Shown here: one piece after another, positions 5,875-62,984 of the stretch
Layout of the letters: every line of letters begins with the position of its first letter
Numbering within the stretch: position 1 is the stretch's first letter
Assembly: GCF_000255295.1 (NCBI RefSeq)
Contig: NC_017030.1
Location: 5,704,001 to 5,768,000, forward strand
DNA: 64,000 bases
Source of the DNA: Corallococcus coralloides DSM 2259
Lineage (GTDB): Bacteria; Myxococcota; Myxococcia; Myxococcales; Myxococcaceae
Reading direction: 5' to 3'
The notes under the pieces: generated by a model
The model's database searches: none
What the model was told of the DNA's origin: nothing
What the model saw: only the letters and a program-made list of their open reading frames with translations
Translations under genes and position numbers: made by a program

Positions 5875-7515
5875 TCAGGCCCCGAGCTGCGCCGCCCGCC
5901 GGGAGTTGCGGTTGCCCCAGCGGGTGAGCGGGCGGACGGCCTGCTTCAACGAAGCATGGACCTGTGCGACGCCCGCGCTGTTCGTGGCCGCGTAGACGTA
6001 GCGGTCCGGGCGCAGGACGACCAGGTCCGAGCCGTGCTGGGCGAACCACTCGCCCAGCTTGCCCTCCAGGTCCACCACCTCGCCGGAGCGGCCCGCGCCG
6101 GAGCGCGCCGCCGGCGCCACGGACAGCCACACGCCGCCGATGTCCTCCGCCAGCGCCCTGGCGGCCTGCTGGACGTCCGCGGGCGCACCCGGCCGCGTCA
6201 GCACCGCGAAGCGGTGGCCGATGACGTCATCCAGCGGGCGCTCCCCTTCCTCGCCGTGCTCCACGCGCGGCTGCGGGAAGTAGGCGCCCTCCGCGGCCTG
6301 CTTGGACTTGCCGCGCTTGCCGCCGAAGAGGAACCCCTCCGCGTGGAAGAGGTTCGGCTTCATCTTGTACTCGCGGATGAAGGGGCCGGTGACGGGCATG
6401 TGGTACAGCAGCTTGATGAAGGCGTTGCGCGCGCGGGCCATGAACGGGCCGCCCGACGCCAGCATCGACCCCAGCGAATCCGACAGGCGCATCATCTCCG
6501 CGGCGTGCGGCCGGCGCTCCACCTCGTAGGTGTCCAGCAGCGACGCGTCCGCCGCGCCGCCCAGCACGTGCGCCAGCTTCCAGGTGAGGTTCGCCGCGTC
6601 GCGCAGGCCGGAGCACAGGCCCTGCCCCAGGAACGGCGGCATCAGGTGCGCCGCGTCTCCGAGCAGGAACACCCGGCCCACGCGCCACTTCTCCGCCATG
6701 CGGCTGTGGTAGGCGTAGAGGTTGACGCTCTTCACCTTCACGGTGTCCGGATCGATGAAGGGCGCGATGATGCTGCGCACGTACTCGGGGGTCTTCACGT
6801 ACTCCAGGTCCTGCCCCGGCTTCACCACCGTGTCGAAGCGAATCTCGTCGTGCGCGGTGCGCGTCACGATGCCCACGCGCTCCGGGCCGCAGGGGTAGTA
6901 GGTGAAGTCCGGCGCGGACGACTGCGTCTCCACGGAGATGGCCAGCGCGTGCTCCAGCGCCGTGGTGCCCTCCAGCTTCAGGCCCAGCCGGCGGCGGATG
7001 CCGCTCTTGGCGCCGTCGCACGCGAGCAGGTAGCGCGCGCGCACCGTCATCGTGCGGCCGTTGACGTTGTCCTTCACGCGCACGGACACGCCTTCGTCGT
7101 CCTGCATGAAGGATTCGACTTCGTGGCCGCGCCACATGCTGACGTGCGCGAAGCGCTCCAGGCCGCGGTGCAGCGCCGCCTCCATGCGGGGCTGGTTGAA
7201 GAGCGAGCCGATGGGGTGGCCGTTGGGGCGCTCCACCTTGGTGAAGTCCACCTCGGCGAGCATCCGCATCTCATCGTCCACGTAGGTCATCTTCAGGCAC
7301 GGGTGGAAGCCCGGCCCCAGCTCGCCCGTGAGACCCGCGGACTGGAAGATGCGCTGCGCTTCGTCGTCCGCGTTGATGGCGCGGGACTGCGTGTGCGCGG
7401 TGGTCTCCTTCTCGATGACCACGGTGCGCAGGCCGTACTGGCCGAGCAGGTTCGCAGCCATGGCACCCACCGGGCCGCTTCCGACGACGATCACATCAAC
7501 AGATTCCGGAGCCAT
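5875..7515 (-). CDS. FAD-dependent aromatic monooxygenase, MhpA/PHBH type
   Basis: A 546-residue class A flavoprotein hydroxylase. GSGPVG (12-17) is the FAD-binding Rossmann motif, CDGAKSG the DG motif, and GDAAHLMPPFLGQG (near 285) the second FAD-binding motif. A segment SRAINADDEA after the Rossmann fold is typical of 3-(3-hydroxyphenyl)propionate hydroxylase relatives, and the length fits that group. It should hydroxylate a phenolic or quinone-like ring with NAD(P)H and O2; the substrate is unknown. The start at 7515 has a GGGAGGGAG ribosome site; a longer in-frame reading to 7686 lacks one. Transcribed away from the methyltransferase at 7968, and convergent with the iron-protein gene. Confidence 0.88.
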   Translation of the reverse strand: MAPESVDVIVVGSGPVGAMAANLLGQYGLRTVVIEKETTAHTQSRAINADDEAQRIFQSAGLTGELGPGFHPCLKMTYVDDEMRMLAEVDFTKVERPNGHPIGSLFNQPRMEAALHRGLERFAHVSMWRGHEVESFMQDDEGVSVRVKDNVNGRTMTVRARYLLACDGAKSGIRRRLGLKLEGTTALEHALAISVETQSSAPDFTYYPCGPERVGIVTRTAHDEIRFDTVVKPGQDLEYVKTPEYVRSIIAPFIDPDTVKVKSVNLYAYHSRMAEKWRVGRVFLLGDAAHLMPPFLGQGLCSGLRDAANLTWKLAHVLGGAADASLLDTYEVERRPHAAEMMRLSDSLGSMLASGGPFMARARNAFIKLLYHMPVTGPFIREYKMKPNLFHAEGFLFGGKRGKSKQAAEGAYFPQPRVEHGEEGERPLDDVIGHRFAVLTRPGAPADVQQAARALAEDIGGVWLSVAPAARSGAGRSGEVVDLEGKLGEWFAQHGSDLVVLRPDRYVYAATNSAGVAQVHASLKQAVRPLTRWGNRNSRRAAQLGA

Positions 7516-52566: not shown

Positions 52567-53472
52567 TCACAAGGCTTTCAGCGCCAGCTCGCGCGCCGCC
52601 TCGACGAAGAGTCGCAGCGGCGCGGAGCGCTGCGCGCGGCTGGGGTAGTAGAGGAAGAAGCCGGGCACGGTCGGCGCGTAGGCCTCCAACACGCGCACGA
52701 GCCGTCCCGTGCGAAGCCGCTCCGCCACCACGGGCTCCATGGCATACGCCAGCCCCAGGCCCTGCTCCGCCAGGTCCAGCGTCAGGTGATTGTCACTGCT
52801 GATCACGCCCCCGCGCACCGGCACGCGCCAGTTCCTGCGGCCCCGCTCCAGCTCCCATGCGTAGAGCGCCCCGGTGGAGCGCATGCGGAACGTGATGCAC
52901 TCATGCTTCAGCAGATCCTCCGGGCGCTGGGGCGTGCCGTGGCGCTCCAGGTAGCTGGGGGCCGCCACCACCACGAAGCGGAACGCTTCCGTGAGCCGCA
53001 CCTGCACCATGTCGCGCTCGATGGACTCGCTCAGCCGCACGCCCGCGTCGTAGCCCTCCGCCACGATGTCCACGAAGCGCTCCTCGATGACGACCTCCAC
53101 CTCCACGCGCGGGTGCCGAGCTCGGAAGGTGGGGACCACCGGGGTGATGATGTAGGGCACCGCCGCCCGCGGCACCGACAGCCGGACCCGCCCCACCGTC
53201 TCTCCTGGCTGCGCGGCCACCTCCCCGAGCGCGGCGATCGCCTGCCCCATCGCGGGGCCCGCGGTCTCCACGAGTCGCCTGCCCGCGTCCGTCAGCGCCA
53301 CGCTGCGCGTCGTGCGCGTGAGCAGCACCACGCGCAGCTGCTCCTCCAGCTGCCGCACCGAATGACTCACCGCCGCAGTGGAGACGCCCAGCTCGCGCGC
53401 GGCGCCGCTGAAGCTGCTCAGGCGCGCCACGACGAGGAACACCTGGAGCTGCGTGAAGGGTGCCGTATTCAT
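52567..53472 (-). CDS. LysR-family transcriptional regulator (copy 1)
   Basis: 301 residues. A winged helix-turn-helix at 1-60 ([32 protein letters not shown]) and a periplasmic-binding-like effector domain (90-295) of the CrgA/PA-type group. It is a paralogue of copy 2 at 53554-54459, same length and orientation, with most residues identical by eye; differences are scattered. The 5' flank also matches copy 2. It is transcribed toward the aldo-keto reductase stop. Its likely targets are the two similar promoters at 51482-51544 and 54500-54562. Confidence 0.93.
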   Translation of the reverse strand: MNTAPFTQLQVFLVVARLSSFSGAARELGVSTAAVSHSVRQLEEQLRVVLLTRTTRSVALTDAGRRLVETAGPAMGQAIAALGEVAAQPGETVGRVRLSVPRAAVPYIITPVVPTFRARHPRVEVEVVIEERFVDIVAEGYDAGVRLSESIERDMVQVRLTEAFRFVVVAAPSYLERHGTPQRPEDLLKHECITFRMRSTGALYAWELERGRRNWRVPVRGGVISSDNHLTLDLAEQGLGLAYAMEPVVAERLRTGRLVRVLEAYAPTVPGFFLYYPSRAQRSAPLRLFVEAARELALKAL

Positions 53473-53553: not shown

Positions 53554-54459
53554 TCACACGGCCTTCGCCGCCAGCTCCCGGGCCGCCTCGGCGAAGAGAC
53601 GCAGCGGCACCGAGCGCTGCGCACGGCTGGGGTAGTAGAGGAAGAAGCCGGGCACGGTGGGCGCGTAGGGCTCCAGCACCCGCACGAGCTTCCCGGTGCG
53701 CAGCCGCTCCTCCACGGCCGGCTCGAAGGCGTACGCCAGCCCCACGCCCTGCTCCGCCAGGGTCGCGGGCAGATGGATGTCATTGGTGACGACGCCGCCG
53801 CGTACCGGCACGCGCCAGCTCTTGCGTCCGCGCTCCAGCTCCCACGGGTAGAGCGTTCCGGTCGTCTGCGAACGGAAGGTGATGCACTCGTGCTTCAGCA
53901 GGTCCTCGGGGCGCTGGGGCGTGCCGTGGCGCGCGAGGTAGCCGGGCGACGCCACCACCACGAAGCGGAACGCCTCCGTGAGCCGCACCTGCACCATGTC
54001 GCGCTGGATGGACTCGCTCAGCCGTACGCCCGCGTCGTAGCCCTCCTCGACGATGTCCACGAAGCGATCCTCGATGACGACCTCCACCTCCACCCGTGGG
54101 TGTCGCTCACGGAAGGTGGGGACCACCGGGGTGATGACGTAGGGCACCGCCGCCGTCAGCACCGTCAGCCGGACCCGGCCCACGGCCTCTCCGGGTTGCG
54201 CGGCCACCTCGCGGAGCGTGGCCAGCGTCTGCCCCACCGCCGGGCCTGCTCCCTCCACGAGCCTCCGGCCTACGTCCGTCAGTGCCACACTGCGTGTGGT
54301 ACGCGTGAGCAGCACCACCCGCAGCTGCTCCTCCAGCTGCCGCACCGCCTGGCTTACCGCGGCCGTGGAGACGCCCAGCTCGCGCGCCGCACCGCTGAAG
54401 CTGCGCAGCCGGGCCACGGCGAGGAAGACCTGCAGCTGCGTGAAGGGGGCCGTATTCAT
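53554..54459 (-). CDS. LysR-family transcriptional regulator (copy 2)
   Basis: 301 residues, tandem duplicate of copy 1: the helix-turn-helix [20 protein letters not shown] is nearly the same, with small shifts in the effector domain. It is divergent from the zinc alcohol dehydrogenase across 146 bases that contain the shared promoter element, the classic LysR arrangement. Both copies appear intact. Copy 1 may have arisen by duplication of this divergent unit without its target gene. Confidence 0.93.
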
Positions 54460-54605: not shown

Positions 54606-55649
54606 ATGCCTACCGCCAACGCCTACGCCGCCACCTCCTCGAAGTCACCGCTCGGTCCCCTGGCCATCCAGCGCCGGGAGCTTGGCCCGCGCGACGTGCT
54701 CATCGAGATCAAGTACTGCGGCATCTGCCACTCCGACATCCACACCGTCCGCGGCGAGTGGGGCGAGACGACCTACCCCATCGTTCCCGGCCATGAGATC
54801 GCCGGCATCGTCACCGGCGTCGGCGCCCAGGTGAAGAAGCACGCCGTCGGCGACCGCGTCGGCGTGGGCTGCATGGTGGACTCCTGCGGCGACTGCTCGT
54901 CCTGCCGCAAGGGCGAGGAGCAGCACTGCCTCAGGGGGATGGTCGGAACGTACGGCGCCACCGGGCGGGACGGCCAGCTCACGCAGGGCGGCTACTCCAC
55001 CCACATCGTCGTGACCGAGGACTTCGTCCTCAAGATCCCCGAAGGCATCTCGCTCGACGCCGCCGCGCCGCTGCTGTGCGCGGGCATCACGACGTACTCA
55101 CCGCTGCGCCGCTGGGGCGCGGGGCCCGGCAAGAAGGTGGCCATCGTGGGCCTGGGCGGCCTGGGCCACATGGGCGTGAAGTTCGCTCGCGCGATGGGCG
55201 CGGAGGTGACCGTCCTGTCGCAGTCGCTGAGCAAGAAGGAGGACGGCCTGCGGCTGGGCGCTCACCACTACTACGCCACGAAGGATCCGGAGACGTTCAA
55301 GAAGCTGGCGGGCACGTTCGACCTCATCGTGAACACGGTGAGCGCGAAGATCGACCTGGACGCCTACCTGTCCCTGCTGGCCCTGGACGGAGCCCTGGTC
55401 AACGTGGGCGCTCCCGCGGAGCCGCTCTCGGTCAACGTGTTCTCGCTGATCATGCCGCGCCGCGTGTTCACCGGCTCGCTCATCGGCGGCATCCCGCAGA
55501 CGCAGGAGATGTTGGACTTCTGCGCGAAGCACCACATCGGCGCGGACATCGAGGTCATCCCCGCCAGCAAGATCAACGACGCCTACGAGCGGGTGCTCGC
55601 CTCCGACGTCCGGTACCGGTTCGTCATCGACACGTCGACCCTGAAGTAG
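54606..55649 (+). CDS. Zinc-dependent alcohol dehydrogenase (YahK/AdhC type)
   Basis: 347 residues, medium-chain dehydrogenase/reductase of the cinnamyl-alcohol type, usually NADPH-dependent aldehyde reductases. Catalytic zinc ligands are C41, H63 (PGHE) and the Cys in LLCAGITTY. The structural zinc cluster is C94, C97, C100, C108. [11 protein letters not shown] is the cofactor fold. All ligands are present. It is divergent from LysR copy 2 and shares promoter features with the aldo-keto reductase, so it may be part of an aldehyde-stress response. Confidence 0.93.
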
Positions 55650-55650
55650 C

Positions 55651-56101
55651 TCAGGACTTCACGACGCCGTCGAAGACGCCGTAGCCGCCGGGGATGAAGA
55701 AGTCCTTCCCCGGCTCCAGGCCAAAGGCACTCATCACCGTCGCCGCGATGTCCTGCGAACGCGGCGCGCGTGACACGTGGCTGCCGTCCTCCTCCACCAG
55801 CGCCACCGGTGCCCCCATGGGCGAGCCGTTCATCGTCTCGTCGTACCCACCGAGCATCTGGTTGCCCTGGATGCCTCCGCCCACGAGCAGCGCGCACGTC
55901 GCCGGGTGGTGATCGCTCCCCTGCTTCGGGAAGGTCCGCCCGAAGTCGCTGTAGACGTACACGAGCGTCTCATCCAGCAGCGACCGGGACGGGTCGGACC
56001 TGCTCGGGGTGAGGCTCATCTCGATGCACAGCCGCCCCACCATCTCCAACGCGATGCGCAGGTGGTTGGTGTGCATCTGCACGCCGTTCGCGCCGGAAGT
56101 A
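55651..56101 (-). pseudogene. C-terminal fragment of a DUF1501 protein
   Basis: About 150 residues of homology, from GANGVQMHTNHLRIALEMV to the end (DETLVYVYSDFGRTFPKQGS, HHPATCALLVGGG, NQMLGGYDETM, DIAATVMSAFGLEPG), the C-terminal part of DUF1501 secreted sulfatase-like proteins. The usual N-terminal 250-300 residues are missing and no start or ribosome site precedes it. It joins the remnant at 56105-56605 in a different frame. The two are the ends of a gene pair whose middle has been lost. It is unlikely to make a functional protein. Confidence 0.75.
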
Positions 56102-56104
56102 CTT

Positions 56105-56605
56105 TCAGGCACCGGCCTTCGCGGTGCCCGCGGGGCAGCGCTGGATGGACCGCTGCTGCTGCACGCCGTACTCCAGCGCGTCGGCGGTGCGAGGCACGAG
56201 CGGGATGTTGAACCAGTCGCGCGCCTGCTCGAACATCGTCCGGTAGAACGCGGGCTGCCCGAGCGTGGTGTCGACGAAGTGCTCCACGAAGGCCCGCTGC
56301 GCGGCGTCGTCGCCCGCGGCTTCGAGCGCGGCGAACTCCTCGTCCGTCGGGGGCGTCCCGCGCAGCGCGAGCGAGGCCCGCCGCAGCAGCCGGCTGGGGG
56401 CGAGCAGGTCGTTCTTCTCGCCCGCGTCGGGGTCACCGGAAGGCGTGGGGTCCTCACACCCTGCGTCCGTCGAGCCTGACGGATCCACGTCATGATCAGC
56501 CGGCCCGCCCACAACGCCAGTGCAGGCTGTCCACACGAGGAGAATCAGGGCCCACCCGGCAGAGCGTCGCCAGGTGCCAGGAGCCGTCGCGTCGCGCGAA
56601 GTCAT
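56105..56605 (-). pseudogene. N-terminal fragment of a DUF1549-like lipoprotein
   Basis: 166 residues: signal peptide with lipobox VWTAC, an acidic Asp/Pro linker, then RLLRRASLALRGTPPTDEEF and ARDWFNIPL, like the start of DUF1549-type proteins that pair with DUF1501. It stops at TGA right after GTAKAGA, exactly where it meets the DUF1501 fragment. Full-length relatives should be several hundred residues long. ATG 56605 is the natural start. A truncated lipoprotein could still be made but would lack most of the domain. Confidence 0.65.
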
Positions 56606-56846
56606 GCGCCGCCGCAAAGGCAATGCGTGTGCCAGATACAGGACACCGCGGGGATTTCTTCTCTCGCTCTGAGAGAGCGCGCGCCGCAATGAGAAACGCG
56701 ATGACTGGCGATGGCTCTCCCCCACACTGTGAGGCCCGCTCCCCCATTCGTCGTGGTGATCCACGTCACCCCGCCGTGCCTTCATGCTGTCGCCCTGCCA
56801 GCGGCGCGCTGCCACCCGTGGGCTGGATGATGCGGAGGGTGCTTTC

Positions 56847-56896
56847 TCTAGGCTCTCCGCCAGTGGCCGGACGTCTCCGGTCCTGGGGGAGGCAGC
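56847..56896 (+). promoter_or_regulatory. Leader of the first beta-helix gene, partial copy of the repeated leader
   Basis: Contains the end of the leader repeat seen before copies 2-4 (TCTAGGCTCTCCGCC, then GTGGCCGGACGTCTCCGG), with the same CCGGA-CGTC-TCCGG hairpin a few bases before the ribosome site. Upstream of this point the similarity stops. Confidence 0.6.
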
Positions 56897-58075
56897 ATGA
56901 AGCAGACACGCGGACTCGCCATGGTGATGGCTGTGACCACCTTGCTCACGGGAGCGCCCGACGCCCTGGCCCGTGACACGGTTCCATCCAACGTGGAGCC
57001 CAAGGTGAGCTTCACCACCGGCCACACCGTCCGGTGCGGTGACACCCTCACCCAGCACACGCTCCTCACGCAGGATCTCAACTGCCCGGGCTCGGCGCCC
57101 TTCGCGCTCCGGGTCGTGGGCGCAGGCATCGTCCTGGACCTGGATGGCCACACCGTTCGCCGCACCGGGACGACTACAACAGAAACACCGGGCATCGAGA
57201 TCCAGGCCAACAGCATGGTGCGCAATGGCACGGTTCAGGGATTCGGCCGGGGCATCACCACACCTGACGGCTCGGACGCTTCGAACGTGCGACTCCACAA
57301 GCTCGCGCTCGTCGACAACTACACGGGTGTCTACAACGCTGCCACCACGAACTTCCTCATCACGGAGTGCCGCGTGAGCGGAAGCGCCACCGGGCTGAGC
57401 CGTGAGTTCGACGCGTCCAGCGGCAGCTTCGACGTGAGGTCGTCGGTGTTCACCGGCAACAGGCTCGCGATGCTCGCGGACTACCACGACATCGACGTGC
57501 TCGACTCCACGTTCACGTCCAACGAGAGCGTCATCTACTGCTGGGAAGGCCGCGTCCGCTTCAGGTCGAGCACGATCGCGTGGAACAACGCCGTGGGCTC
57601 GATCCCCAACGATGGTGACGGCCCCCGGGCCTGCGAGGAGATGCGGTTCGAGAACACGCTCATCGCGAACAACGCCACGATCGCGCCCTACTCGATTCCC
57701 GTCTGGGAGCCGTACAAGCTGTCGATGATCGACACGCTGGTGGTCCACAACGGCACGGGGCTCCAGGCCAGGGCACTGACCGTCTACCTCGACGGCAACA
57801 CCTTCTATGGCAACGCGAGCGGCTTGACCCTGTCCGACCGCGCAGGGTTCCCCTCGGGTCCTCTCACCGGCATCGTTCGCGGCAACCAGTTCCTGTCCAA
57901 CGACGGCGACGGCCTCCGGGTAGAGCCGCCCAGCACCCCCACGGTGATCAACAACGTCGCCCTGGGCAACGCGGGCTTCGGCATCTATGCACCGACCGCC
58001 TTCGACGGCGGCGGGAACGTCGCGCGGGACAACACCGCGGGCGACTGCGTGGGCATCATCTGTTCGCCCTTCTGA
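56897..58075 (+). CDS. Exported parallel beta-helix protein, array copy 1
   Basis: 392 residues. A signal peptide (1-25, cut after ALA) precedes RCGDTLTQHTLLTQDL and a right-handed beta-helix with repeated D-N/S-T-F and G-N-x-F turns (for example IDVLDSTFTSN, LIANNATI, VYLDGNTFYGN, IVRGNQFLSN). It ends in CVGIICSPF. Two N-terminal and two C-terminal Cys likely pair. Proteins with this fold bind or degrade polysaccharides or act as adhesins; no catalytic motif is visible. It has a GGGAGG ribosome site. Its middle part resembles copy 4 more than copies 2 and 3. Confidence 0.85.
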   Translation: MKQTRGLAMVMAVTTLLTGAPDALARDTVPSNVEPKVSFTTGHTVRCGDTLTQHTLLTQDLNCPGSAPFALRVVGAGIVLDLDGHTVRRTGTTTTETPGIEIQANSMVRNGTVQGFGRGITTPDGSDASNVRLHKLALVDNYTGVYNAATTNFLITECRVSGSATGLSREFDASSGSFDVRSSVFTGNRLAMLADYHDIDVLDSTFTSNESVIYCWEGRVRFRSSTIAWNNAVGSIPNDGDGPRACEEMRFENTLIANNATIAPYSIPVWEPYKLSMIDTLVVHNGTGLQARALTVYLDGNTFYGNASGLTLSDRAGFPSGPLTGIVRGNQFLSNDGDGLRVEPPSTPTVINNVALGNAGFGIYAPTAFDGGGNVARDNTAGDCVGIICSPF

Positions 58076-58191
58076 GCACCACCGTGTCGCGCGCCGGGCG
58101 GCGGGCTGCTCCCTCTGGGGGGGAAGCCGTCTGGAGCACCGTGCCTAGCCTCTTCCGCCGGTGGCCGGACGTCTCCGGCCCGGGAGGCTGC
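58076..58191 (+). repeat. 116-base leader repeat, copy 2
   Basis: Gap before array copy 2. Contains CTAGCCTCTTCCGCC and the hairpin GGCCGGA-CGTC-TCCGGCC (58163-58180) immediately before the ribosome site. The same length recurs at 59374-59489 and 60672-60787. Confidence 0.8.
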
Positions 58192-59373
58192 ATGAAGCAG
58201 ACACGCGGAGTCGTTGTCGCCATGGCCGTGACCACCTTGCTCACGGGAGCGCCTGACGTCCAGGCCCGAGACACGGTTGCATCCAACGTGGAACCCACGG
58301 TGATCTTCACCACCGGTCACACCGTCCGGTGCGGTGACACGATTACCCAGCACACGAAGCTCACGCACGACCTCAACTGCCCCAGCTCGGACCCCTTCGC
58401 GCTCCAGGTCGACGGCCCGGACATCGTGCTGGACCTGGGCGGATACACCGTGCGCCGCACGGGTCCGGTGAACTTCACCTCGCAAGGCATCGTGGTCGCC
58501 AACGGCAGGATGGTGCGCAATGGCACGGTCCAGGGGTTCGCCAGCGGCATCACCACCACCAGCGGAGAGACCGCGCTGAACCTGCGGCTGCATGCGCTCG
58601 CGATCCTCGACAACGGCATCGGCGTCTACAACCGGGCGTCCAATGCGAACTTCCTCATCACGGACTCGCTCCTGAGCGGGAATGACACAGGGCTGAGAGG
58701 TGAGTTCGATGCGTCCACGGGAAACTTCGACGTGCGGTCATCCATCTTCACCCACAACGAGCTCGTGATGATCGCGGACTACCACAACATTGACGTGCTC
58801 GACTCCACGTTCACGTCCAACGGAAGCATCTTCTTCTGCTGGGAAGGCCTCATCCGCATCAGGTCGAGCACCATCGAGTGGAACGACGCCGTGGGCACGG
58901 CCCACAATGACGGCGAAGGCCCCCGCCGCTGCTACGAAACGCGCTTCGAAAACACGCTCATCGCGAACAACGCCGCGTTCGCGACTGCTGACGAACCGGT
59001 CTGGGCGCCGCTCCAGCTGTCAATGCTCGACTCGCTGGTCGTCAGCAATGGCACGGGGCTCAATGCCACTGCCGTGAACGTCTACATCGACGGCAACACC
59101 TTCTATGGCAACGCGGGCGGCCTGACCCTGTCCGACCGAGTAGGGCCCTCCGGTGGCACACTCACCGGCATCGTCCGCGGCAACCAGTTCCTGTCCAACG
59201 ACGGCGACGGCCTCCGGGTGGTGCCGCCCAGCACCCCCACGCTGATCAACAACGTCGCCCTGGGCAACGCGGGCTTCGGCATCTACGCGCCGACTGCCTT
59301 CGACGGCGGCGGAAACGTCGCGCGAGACAACACCGCGGGCGACTGCGTGGGCATCATCTGTTCGCCCTTCTGA
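58192..59373 (+). CDS. Exported parallel beta-helix protein, array copy 2
   Basis: 393 residues, same layout as copy 1: signal peptide, RCGDTITQHTKLTHDL, beta-helix repeats and CVGIICSPF. Its middle (IVVANGRMVRNGTVQGFASG, LHALAILDNGIGVYNRAS) is the closest relative of copy 3, different from copies 1 and 4. The C-terminal 70 codons are nearly identical with the other copies. Each copy has its own ribosome site GGGAGG. Function is not known. Confidence 0.85.
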   Translation: MKQTRGVVVAMAVTTLLTGAPDVQARDTVASNVEPTVIFTTGHTVRCGDTITQHTKLTHDLNCPSSDPFALQVDGPDIVLDLGGYTVRRTGPVNFTSQGIVVANGRMVRNGTVQGFASGITTTSGETALNLRLHALAILDNGIGVYNRASNANFLITDSLLSGNDTGLRGEFDASTGNFDVRSSIFTHNELVMIADYHNIDVLDSTFTSNGSIFFCWEGLIRIRSSTIEWNDAVGTAHNDGEGPRRCYETRFENTLIANNAAFATADEPVWAPLQLSMLDSLVVSNGTGLNATAVNVYIDGNTFYGNAGGLTLSDRVGPSGGTLTGIVRGNQFLSNDGDGLRVVPPSTPTLINNVALGNAGFGIYAPTAFDGGGNVARDNTAGDCVGIICSPF

Positions 59374-59489
59374 GCACCACCGTGTCGCGCTCCGGGCGGC
59401 GTGCTGCTCCCTCTGGGAGGGAAGCCGTCTGGAGCACCGTGCCTAGCCTCTTCCGCCGGTGGCCGGACGTCTCCGGCCGGGGAGGCTGT
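59374..59489 (+). repeat. 116-base leader repeat, copy 3
   Basis: Nearly identical with 58076-58191, including the hairpin GGCCGGA-CGTC-TCCGGCC before the ribosome site. Confidence 0.8.
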
Positions 59490-60671
59490 ATGAAACAGAC
59501 ACGCGGATTCGTCGTCGCCATGGCCGTGACCACCCTTCTCACGGGGGCGCCCAAGGCGCAGGCTCGGGGCACGGTCCCTGCGGATGGGGAGGCCCCGGTC
59601 GTGTACACCGGAGGCGCCACCGTCCGGTGCGGTGACACCATCACTCAGCACACGCGACTCACGCGCGATCTCTACTGCCCCAGCTCGGCGCCCTTCGCGC
59701 TCCGGGTCGACGGCCCGGACATCGTCCTGGACCTGGGCGGCCACACCGTGCGCCGCACGGGACCGGCGAACTTCACCTCGTATGGCATCGTGGTCGCCAA
59801 CGGCAGGATGGTGCGCAATGGCACGGTCCAGGGATTCGCTAGCGGCATCTCCACCACCAACGGCGCACCCGTGCTGAACCTGCGGCTGCATGCGCTCGCG
59901 ATCCTCGACAACAATGTCGGCGTCTTCAACCGGGCGTCCGCTGCGAACTTCCTCATCACGGACTCGCGCCTGAGCGGGAATGGCACAGGGATGGCCGGCG
60001 AGTTCGATGCGTCCACGGGAACCTTCGACATACGGTCATCCATCTTCACCCACAACGAGATCGCGATGTTCGCGGACTTCCATGACTTCGACGTGCTCGA
60101 CTCCACGTTCACGTCCAATGAGAGCGCCGCCTACTGCTGGCACGGCACGTTCCGCTTCAGGTCGAGCACGATCGCGTGGAATGACGCCGTGAGCACGATT
60201 CCCAACGACGGCTTCGACGCCCGTGTCTGCAGCGAGATGCGGTTCGAGAACACGCTCATCGCCAACAACGCCGCGTTCGCGCCGCCTGACGTACCGATCT
60301 GGGAGCCGATCCAGCTGTCGATGCTCGACTCGCTGGTCGTCCACAACGGCACGGGGCTCCAGGTCGCGGCCCAGACCGTCTACATCGACGGCAACACCCT
60401 CCATGACAACGCGAGCGGCCTGACCCTGTCGGACCGCACCGGTCTCGTCACCGCCCCGCTCACGGGCATCGTCCGCGGCAACCAGTTCCTGTCCAACGAC
60501 GGGGACGGACTCCGGGTGGTGCCGCCCAGCACCCCCACGCTGATCAACAACCTGGCCCTGGGCAACGCGGGCTTCGGCATCTACGCGCCGACTGCCTTCG
60601 ACGGCGGCGGAAACGTCGCGCGAGACAACACCGCGGGCGACTGCGTGGGCATCATCTGTTCGCCCTTCTGA
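59490..60671 (+). CDS. Exported parallel beta-helix protein, array copy 3
   Basis: 393 residues. The N-terminus (signal peptide and VVYTGGATVRCGDTITQHTR) is the same as that of copy 4, while the following block is of the copy-2 type (IVVANGRMVRNGTVQGFASG). The later part (VAAQTVYIDGN, HDNASGLTLS) again resembles copy 4. Such changes of closest relative within one gene point to recombination between copies. Same fold and Cys layout as the other copies, with its own GGGGAGG ribosome site. Confidence 0.85.
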   Translation: MKQTRGFVVAMAVTTLLTGAPKAQARGTVPADGEAPVVYTGGATVRCGDTITQHTRLTRDLYCPSSAPFALRVDGPDIVLDLGGHTVRRTGPANFTSYGIVVANGRMVRNGTVQGFASGISTTNGAPVLNLRLHALAILDNNVGVFNRASAANFLITDSRLSGNGTGMAGEFDASTGTFDIRSSIFTHNEIAMFADFHDFDVLDSTFTSNESAAYCWHGTFRFRSSTIAWNDAVSTIPNDGFDARVCSEMRFENTLIANNAAFAPPDVPIWEPIQLSMLDSLVVHNGTGLQVAAQTVYIDGNTLHDNASGLTLSDRTGLVTAPLTGIVRGNQFLSNDGDGLRVVPPSTPTLINNLALGNAGFGIYAPTAFDGGGNVARDNTAGDCVGIICSPF

Positions 60672-60787
60672 GCACCACCGTGTCGCGCTCCGGGCGGCGT
60701 GCTGCTCCCTCTGGGGGGGAAGCCGTCCGGAGCACCGTGCCTAGCCTCTTCCGCCGGTGGCCGGACGTCTCCGGCCCGGGAGGCTGC
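60672..60787 (+). repeat. 116-base leader repeat, copy 4
   Basis: Nearly identical with the two leaders before copies 2 and 3, with hairpin and CTAGCCTCTTCC block. Confidence 0.8.
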
Positions 60788-61969
60788 ATGAAACAGACAC
60801 GCGGATTCGTCGTCGCCATGGCCGTGACCACCCTTCTCACGGGGGCGCCCAAGGCGCAGGCTCGGGGCACGGTCCCTGCGGATGGGGAGGCCCCGGTCGT
60901 GTACACCGGAGGCGCCACCGTCCGGTGCGGTGACACCATCACTCAGCACACGCGGCTGACGCGCGATCTCTACTGCCCCAGCTCGGCGCCCTTCGCGCTC
61001 CGGGTCACGGGCGAAGGCGTCGTCCTGGATCTGGGCGGCCACACCGTGCGCCGCACGGGTCCGGCGGATATCTACTCGCAAGGCATCACGCTCCAGGCCA
61101 ACAGCATGGTGCGCAATGGCACGATTCAAGGGTTCGGCCGGGCCATCATGGTCCTTGGCGGCTCGGGCCCATTGAGCGTGCGCCTCCACAAGCTCGCGCT
61201 TCTCGACGGCTACGCGGGTGTCTTCAACGAAGCCACCGCGACGGCCTTCCTCATCACGGAGTGCCGCGTGAGTGGGCAGAGCGTCGGGATGAGGGGGGAG
61301 ATTGATGCGTCCACCGGCTCTTTCGACGTGAGGTCGTCGGTGTTCACCCACAACGAACTCGCGATGCTCGCGGACTTCCACAGCATCGACGTGCTCGACT
61401 CCACGTTCACGTCCAATGGGAACGCCTTCAACTGCTGGGACGGCCTCATCCGCATCAGGTCGAGCACGATCGCGTGGAATGACTCAGTGGGCGAGATCCG
61501 CAATGACCCCGGCTTCCGGACGTGCAACGAAATTCGGTTCGAGAACACGCTCATCGCCAACAACGCCGCATTCGCGCTCGCCTCCGAGCCGGTCTGGAAT
61601 CCGATCAAGCTGTCGATGCTCGACACCCTGGCCGTCCACAACGGCACGGGGCTCCAGGTCGCGGCCGAGACCGTCTACATCGACGGCAACACCTTTAATG
61701 ACAACGCGAGCGGCCTGACCCTGTCCACCCGCGAAGGGCCCACCACCCCTGGCCCACTCACGGGCATCGTCCGCGGCAACCAGTTCCTGTCCAACGACGG
61801 GGACGGACTCCGGGTGGTGCCGCCCAGCACTCCCACGGTGATCAACAACCTGGCCCTGAACAACACGGGCTTCGGCATCTACGCGCCCACCGCCTTCGAC
61901 GGCGGCGGAAACGTCGCGCGAAACAACACCGCGGGCGACTGCGTGGGCATCGTCTGCGCCATGTACTGA
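60788..61969 (+). CDS. Exported parallel beta-helix protein, array copy 4
   Basis: 393 residues. Signal peptide and first 100 residues match copy 3; from about residue 97 the sequence switches to the copy-1 type (LQANSMVRNGTIQGFGRA, VRLHKLALLDGYAGVFN, LITECRVSG). The end is CVGIVCAMY in place of the invariant CVGIICSPF, as expected for the last, least homogenised unit. Followed by a hairpin (62041-62065). Its role is as unknown as that of the other copies. Confidence 0.85.
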   Translation: MKQTRGFVVAMAVTTLLTGAPKAQARGTVPADGEAPVVYTGGATVRCGDTITQHTRLTRDLYCPSSAPFALRVTGEGVVLDLGGHTVRRTGPADIYSQGITLQANSMVRNGTIQGFGRAIMVLGGSGPLSVRLHKLALLDGYAGVFNEATATAFLITECRVSGQSVGMRGEIDASTGSFDVRSSVFTHNELAMLADFHSIDVLDSTFTSNGNAFNCWDGLIRIRSSTIAWNDSVGEIRNDPGFRTCNEIRFENTLIANNAAFALASEPVWNPIKLSMLDTLAVHNGTGLQVAAETVYIDGNTFNDNASGLTLSTREGPTTPGPLTGIVRGNQFLSNDGDGLRVVPPSTPTVINNLALNNTGFGIYAPTAFDGGGNVARNNTAGDCVGIVCAMY

Positions 61970-62114: not shown

Positions 62115-62984
62115 ATGGAAGAGGAACGCGGAAGGGCCTGGGTGCCCTGGCTGGTGACGGCGCTGGTGGCGGTGCTCGCGGGGCTGGTGCTCTATCTGTC
62201 GCATCGCAGCACGACCCGCGCGGACGCGGAGGCGGCGACTGCCACTGCCCGAGCCAGTGAAGCGGAGGCCGCGAAGCAGCAACTTGAGGCGAAGCTGGCC
62301 GCGCTGGAGGCGGAGCACGCGAAGCTGACCACAGAGAAGGATCAGCTCAACACGGAGAAGGAGCAGCTCAGCCAGACCGTGCAGGAGCAGGAGGCGGAGC
62401 TCACCCGGCTCAAGGCCACCTACGAGGACCTTCAGGACAAGCTGAAGAAGGAGATCGCCGAGGGCGCCATCCGCCTGTCGCAGGACGGAGGCCGCCTCCA
62501 GGTGGACCTGGTCGACAAGGTCCTCTTCGATTCGGGCGACGCCAGCATCAGCACGCGCGGTCAGGAGGTCCTCACCCGCCTGGGCGGCGTGCTGTCCAAG
62601 GTGGATGACAAGCTCATCCAGGTGTCGGGCCACACGGATGACTCGCCGCCCACGCAGAAGCTCCAGGCCACCTTCCCCACCAACTGGGAGCTGTCCGTCG
62701 CGCGCGCCGTCAACGTCGTGCGCTTCCTCCAGGAGAAGGGCGGCGTGCCCGCGAAGCGCATGCTCGCGGCCGGCTACGGCGACACGCGGCCCCTGGGGGC
62801 CAATGCCTCGCCGCAGGGCCGCGCTCGCAACCGCCGCATCGAGCTGCTGTTGATCCCGGAGCTGGCCGCCAAGCGGAACCCCGCCATCGCGAAGGCGGCC
62901 CCCGCGAAGGCGACGCCCGTGAAGGGTGCTCCGGCGAAGGCGGCTGCCACGAAGCCCGCCGTCGGGAAGAAGACCGGCCGGTAG
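62115..62984 (+). CDS. OmpA-family peptidoglycan-binding protein with membrane anchor and coiled coil
   Basis: 289 residues. A cytoplasmic N-terminus and one membrane helix (11-29) are followed by a long coiled coil (45-115, many E/A/K/L heptads), then an OmpA/MotB domain (about 125-255) with VLFDSGDASIS, VSGHTDDSP and the RNRRIELLL end. The tail is a Lys/Ala/Pro-rich repeat. The layout is like MotB or gliding/envelope-tethering proteins rather than an outer-membrane barrel. The ATG follows GGAGG. No motor partner is adjacent. Confidence 0.88.
   Translation: MEEERGRAWVPWLVTALVAVLAGLVLYLSHRSTTRADAEAATATARASEAEAAKQQLEAKLAALEAEHAKLTTEKDQLNTEKEQLSQTVQEQEAELTRLKATYEDLQDKLKKEIAEGAIRLSQDGGRLQVDLVDKVLFDSGDASISTRGQEVLTRLGGVLSKVDDKLIQVSGHTDDSPPTQKLQATFPTNWELSVARAVNVVRFLQEKGGVPAKRMLAAGYGDTRPLGANASPQGRARNRRIELLLIPELAAKRNPAIAKAAPAKATPVKGAPAKAAATKPAVGKKTGR

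Follow-up and report, generated by a model that had tools for sequence, protein, structure and literature searches.

Four genes for right-handed beta-helix proteins stand head to tail on the forward strand of Corallococcus coralloides DSM 2259, within the 64,000-nucleotide stretch of contig NC_017030.1 analysed here (positions 5,704,001 to 5,768,000; the window). We propose that this locus arose by local amplification within a dispersed beta-helix multigene family and has been reshuffled by ordinary recombination, and put the probability of this reading at roughly 0.7. The genome (G000) is a single contig of 10,080,619 bases, and the copies are numbered c1 to c4 in array order. All four coding sequences are intact: copy 1 (56897-58075) encodes 392 amino acids and copies 2 (58192-59373), 3 (59490-60671) and 4 (60788-61969) encode 393 each. 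From start to start the periods are 1295, 1298 and 1298 bases, and the three spacers are exactly 116 bp each, as an earlier note on this DNA had read from the letters. Each spacer is the leader of the copy behind it: 58076-58191 for copy 2 (a match of leader model R1), 59374-59489 for copy 3 and 60672-60787 for copy 4 (both by alignment and leader model). Copy 1 has a full-length leader of its own at 56781-56896, recognised in alignments and by the model (G000:C1:5760782-5760899).

The four copies are mosaics of one another. The 112 informative sites of c1-c4 split 49/10/53 over the three groupings, and the site patterns are clustered along the gene (34 runs against 65.6 expected; p<=5e-5, 20,000 shuffles). 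Third codon positions alone gave 46 sites in 10 runs, where 26.7 were expected. Segmentation by the Bayesian information criterion preferred three blocks. Codons 2-62 pair c1 with c2 and c3 with c4 at 30 of 30 sites, codons 75-186 pair c2 with c3 and c1 with c4 at 46 of 52 sites, and codons 197-371 are mixed (15/8/7). Three control quartets without array copies showed no clustering (p 0.25, 0.48 and 0.29), and four quartets mixing three array copies with the single gene of a sister species (G014) did (p 5e-5 to 0.0014). These results support recombination between the array copies.

Pairwise comparisons show where likeness changes from one copy to another. Over codons 1-74, copies 3 and 4 differ at two positions in 222 nt, both synonymous, and over codons 75-200 their synonymous divergence (pS) rises to 0.40. 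Copies 2 and 3 follow the opposite course, with pS 0.38 in codons 1-74 and pS 0.115 and nonsynonymous divergence (pN) 0.099 in codons 75-200; the last ~35 codons of copy 3 are also like copy 2. The earlier note had said that copy 4 begins like copy 3 and that copy 3 continues like copy 2, and both statements hold. Its further statement that copy 4 continues like copy 1 is true relative to c2 and c3, but in codons 75-200 c1 and c4 are still pS 0.26 and pN 0.21 apart. Across the whole gene, pairwise pS between copies is 0.20-0.30. The 3' 70 codons and the leaders had been called nearly invariant, which needs narrowing on both counts. The former are near-constant in the proteins of c1-c3, whereas the last codons of c4 are of another type, near the single gene of the sister species; in DNA, identity to the reference copy over the last 214 nt is 92-93%, and the other family members, too, keep this 3' end well conserved. 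Of the leaders, the three internal ones differ mutually at 3-5 of 116 positions (96-97% identical), but that of copy 1 is more diverged.

Copy number at this site is not constant among relatives. The site was delimited by a zinc alcohol dehydrogenase gene upstream (ADH; 54606-55649, forward strand) and an OmpA-domain gene downstream (62115-62984, forward strand), both assigned by Pfam and with orthologues in relatives. Eight relatives were comparable; in none of the remaining seven genomes were both anchors found together. Against four copies in G000, five relatives carry one each (G001, G002, G004, G006 and G014) and G012 carries one decayed copy, ~95% identical to the locus of G014 outside gaps. 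No family gene was found in the other two: G013 has none between the anchors, and G003 has none at the contig ends beside them (best tblastn E 0.03), where the anchors lie on separate contigs and the gap is unreadable. The remnant in G012 (L053, about 6367-7301) has internal deletions and keeps most of the leader. Among 96 genomes of the bacterial family Myxococcaceae, 27 have members of the gene family (E<=1e-60), and among the matches listed only G000 has more than two members in a row, although many of these are draft assemblies that could hide arrays. A scan of named genomes with one family protein as query gave three loci. At another site, G001 holds a tandem pair (L052, G001:C8:53238-55700), with a second leader in the gap between the two genes.

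Copy 4 agrees with the single gene of G014 in its 3' end and downstream flank, which makes growth of the array from one ancestral gene probable. Amplification is further supported by the internal spacers, which differ at so few positions while the copies themselves differ by pS 0.20-0.30. The reverse history, an ancient four-copy array kept in the G000 lineage, lost in relatives and held alike at its ends by conversion, seems unlikely to us. It would fit the observations that the copies diverge from one another about as much as from the single genes of relatives and that the gene of G014 falls among them, but it requires that eight relatives lost copies in parallel, down to one or none, and has to accommodate spacers that are 96-97% identical.

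The leader is a family-wide element and not a feature of the array. A sequence-only model built from 32 leaders, with 150 of ~19,000 first-look candidates scored per genome, gave 37 matches at E<1e-5 in 16 Corallococcus genomes; five of the 37 matches were not in the model. Every one of the 37 abuts a family member (35 full-length genes and two fragments, G005:C1232 and the G012 remnant), and no other strong match occurred among the scored candidates in these genomes, the next best having E 0.001. Outside the genus, 11 of 15 family matches were scanned; the leader was present at 8 of 11 distinct loci (nine matches at 12 loci scanned, of which L080 from Pyxidicoccus fallax and L087 are the same DNA and count once). 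It can be recognised in front of dispersed members whose downstream sequences are unrelated. A role of the constant leader as cassette boundary of the array was rejected, as the same leader precedes dispersed single-copy members.

These properties bear on the likeness to antigenic-variation loci that the earlier note had drawn. In Neisseria pilE/pilS and Borrelia vlsE, antigenic variation proceeds by gene conversion, with silent cassettes. The array could likewise be a programmed diversity generator that keeps variants in store and changes a single expressed surface protein by recombining them. As in those systems, near-constant ends enclose variable, mosaic middle blocks here; copy number, too, differs among relatives. 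Yet every one of the four copies is complete and has a leader and a start of its own, and no silent or leaderless copy was seen in the sequence. The leader occurs throughout the family, so it is not an array-specific recombination boundary. In agreement with the earlier note, no recombinase was found among the nine neighbouring open reading frames (ORFs) scanned between 50268 and 63536. A lone family member at another site is, moreover, about as divergent. On this anatomy we rejected programmed antigenic variation and regard a dedicated generator as highly improbable. The idea of a cassette family that makes variants by recombination thus stands as far as exchange between copies and variation in copy number are concerned, and falls in its likeness to an antigenic-variation locus.

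The leader itself may carry a regulatory structure. In single-sequence folds its last 45 nt are more stable than shuffled sequences (z averages -2.68 and lies below -1 in 32 of 33 leaders). A hairpin is predicted beside the ribosome-binding site, for example GGCCGGA-N4-TCCGGCC (58076-58191 and family leaders), and a CCTCC in the leader could pair with the GGAGG there. The outer stem, as predicted, runs into a putative -10 box, which leaves its place in the mRNA uncertain. RNAalifold on the leader alignment (the tree set of 33 without G013) returned just a 5-pair stem and no two-sided compensatory changes. We regard the hairpin as a candidate translational control element. A promoter dyad, GGCAG-N4-CTGCC, was considered and set aside: a 5-N4-5 dyad with GCAG or CTGC and at least four of five pairs is present in 17 of 33 leaders, is missing from all four of the array and does not always have the same position.

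The array forms an island of divergence. Compared with G014, identity is 0.73-0.88 across the array and 0.93-0.97 in the nearest flanks; the contrast is weakened by uneven flanks at this site (0.83-0.97 in well-aligned bins, with 0.83-0.92 further upstream). A second site, with the single-copy paralogue p2, shows the same pattern. In 400-base bins the p2 gene is 77-83% identical to its counterparts in G014 and G012 and most flanking bins are at least 93% identical, apart from the 800 bases just upstream (0.83-0.89), a few bins further off (0.84-0.92) and one half-aligned bin (0.75). Synonymous divergence of p2 from G014 and G012 is pS 0.32-0.35, the genes used for comparison being the array-site anchors. 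Taking the array copies against relatives together with p2, pS is 0.27-0.35, compared with 0.09-0.14 for the two anchor genes against G014 and G012 (G004 was absent from the OmpA comparison). Single-copy p2 being likewise an island of divergence, the variability is a property of the family.

Such islands could also arise if homologous exchange brought in divergent blocks from other strains or species and the site, being hypervariable, underwent repeated replacement that left the array as a by-product. We consider this possible, at clearly less than even odds; it is compatible with local amplification and may be part of it. Besides the two islands and the raised pS, the G+C content at third codon positions of the copies (0.87-0.89), which lies inside the range of the neighbours (0.82-0.96), was counted with its support. 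Sampled relatives, however, offer no near-identical donor: among 12 other members compared, the best match to the array bodies in 90-nt windows was 0.91, and it was higher only in the last 60 codons. Within-gene mosaicism is also lacking in the three single-copy quartets, although two quartets that combine a single array copy, c1 or c2, with three relatives show some (p 0.013 and 0.001).

Several observations weigh against local amplification and reshuffling as we propose it. In the family tree, which like the protein alignment contains 33 of 37 family genes or fragments (G008:C68, G014:C4, the G005:C1232 fragment and the G012 remnant were left out), the single gene of G014 is placed within the c1-c4 clade and joins c1 with moderate support (89/87). 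Simple recent amplification within the G000 lineage would not predict this position. Together with the two low-p quartets of one array copy, it favours exchange that is deeper or wider than growth of this array by itself and lowers our confidence a little. Furthermore, synonymous divergence between the copies exceeds that of the anchor genes against G014 and G012, and the copies are therefore either older than the split from these species or carry imported alleles. Lastly, the parts of copy 3 are unequally diverged from their partners (2 of 222 nt at one end, pS 0.115 in the body), so a single unequal crossover would not suffice to explain it, and several events or later change would be needed.

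Still, local amplification with reshuffling by ordinary recombination appears to us the best account of the locus. The family unit would be a ~1.3-kb module that consists of the conserved ~115-bp leader, with a probable promoter and the predicted 5' hairpin near the ribosome-binding site, and one coding sequence of ~392 codons. One such module occupies the site in five of the eight comparable relatives, and in the G000 lineage it would have been repeated head to tail to four, each copy presumably being expressed from its own leader. RecA-type unequal crossover, gene conversion between copies, or both may have produced the mosaics; copy 3 could stem from an unequal crossover that joined a copy-4-like 5' end to a copy-2-like body. 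Unequal crossover and gene conversion shape tandem paralogue families in general (concerted or birth-and-death evolution). The array shares with such families its head-to-tail copies, homogenised ends, mosaic bodies and a copy number that varies between relatives, and both clustered conflicting site patterns and a copy-number difference at the same site were found here. It differs in that the leader is strongly conserved at dispersed members too.

The coding sequences appear loosely constrained. Between array copies dN/dS is 0.52-0.69, compared with 0.08-0.27 in the two anchor genes, and block-wise pN/pS of array pairs in codons 75-325 is 0.66-0.95, with bootstrap intervals that pass 1 in some blocks and never lie wholly above it. 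Two sets of members from outside the array were put through a home-made codon test (M1a/M2a), which yielded 2dL 9.9 (p 0.007, one site) for eight members and 2dL 1.9 (p 0.39) for six members of the p3 group; w is ~0.1 at 74% and 82% of the sites in these sets, with the others close to neutrality. Members outside the array thus show little sign of positive selection, and we set it aside as driver. Confinement of the variation to loops is likewise weak as an explanation, given a mean of 0.67 extra states per non-strand site and 0.50 per strand site. We picture a dispersed family with a conserved leader, whose beta-helix proteins are probably secreted and whose coils are under loose constraint.

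The encoded proteins probably form a secreted family with the right-handed beta-helix fold. All four exceed the curated Pfam cut-offs of Beta_helix (PF13229; 40.3-54.6 bits against 25.9, with E 4.3e-13 for copy 1) and NosD (PF05048; 32.6-42.5 bits against 23.6). As Beta_helix outscores NosD in all four copies, we read the NosD match as general beta-helix likeness; the NCBIfam model of the NosD maturation protein (TIGR04247) gave 14 bits for copy 1, far from its cut-off of 300, and did not list copies 2-4 at E<=0.1. The N-termini, including that of copy 1, bear a signal-peptide-like stretch by eye. Copy 2, an ORF with Pfam matches, was modelled with AlphaFold2 as a confident right-handed beta-helix except for residues 1-33 (pLDDT 88.8, pTM 0.85), and the model matches solved beta-helices. 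Among its nearest solved folds are AlgE epimerases, phage tailspikes and adhesins, e.g. AlgE6 (Foldseek E 9e-5; VIA Z 28.9, root-mean-square deviation 3.0 over 314 residues) and phi29 gp12 (Z 29.3, 3.0 over 337 residues). The mannuronan C-5 epimerases AlgE4/AlgE6 and the tailspikes share the right-handed beta-helix, but identity is mostly 10-16%, the fold is common, and the likeness is one of fold alone. The proteins may be exported to the cell surface and could act in polysaccharide binding or processing, or in adhesion.

The polymorphic membrane proteins of Chlamydia are also beta-helix proteins in a polymorphic paralogue family (PMC11166332). They are autotransporters, whereas the array proteins, at 392-393 amino acids, leave no room for a barrel: modelled strands of copy 2 reach ~residue 390 of 393, and no C-terminal membrane barrel was found. 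No papers were found on myxobacterial tandem beta-helix paralogs or on Myxococcus beta-helix outer-membrane proteins, the titles and abstract beginnings of related literature gave no account of the locus, and a word search of the main text of a secretome paper (PMC10875029) did not return 'beta-helix'.

Further neighbours, by Pfam, are a PTP-like phosphatase, an aldo-keto reductase, two LysR regulators and remnants of DUF1501/DUF1549. The two LysR genes (52567-53472 and 53554-54459) are adjacent and similar and form another small tandem duplication close to the array. In the stretch that separates ADH from the array (55651-56600), remnants match DUF1501 and, under the cut-off, DUF1549/PSCyt2, apparently a decayed gene pair; G003 has sequence like the DUF1501 remnant after a cupin-like ORF, itself downstream of ADH.

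In this free-living soil bacterium, then, a gene family forms an island of divergence at two sites, with a leader conserved across the genus and beyond. The array offers a natural case for measuring segment exchange between tandem copies without a dedicated system. It is a rather improbable idea that the family comprises genus-wide hypervariable secreted beta-helix recognition proteins, each led by the same leader with a hairpin beside the ribosome-binding site, and that tandem amplification at some sites is a local generator of new binding specificities for prey, phage or kin in myxobacteria. If the proteins do bind prey, phage or kin, their variable coils would be candidate determinants of specificity.

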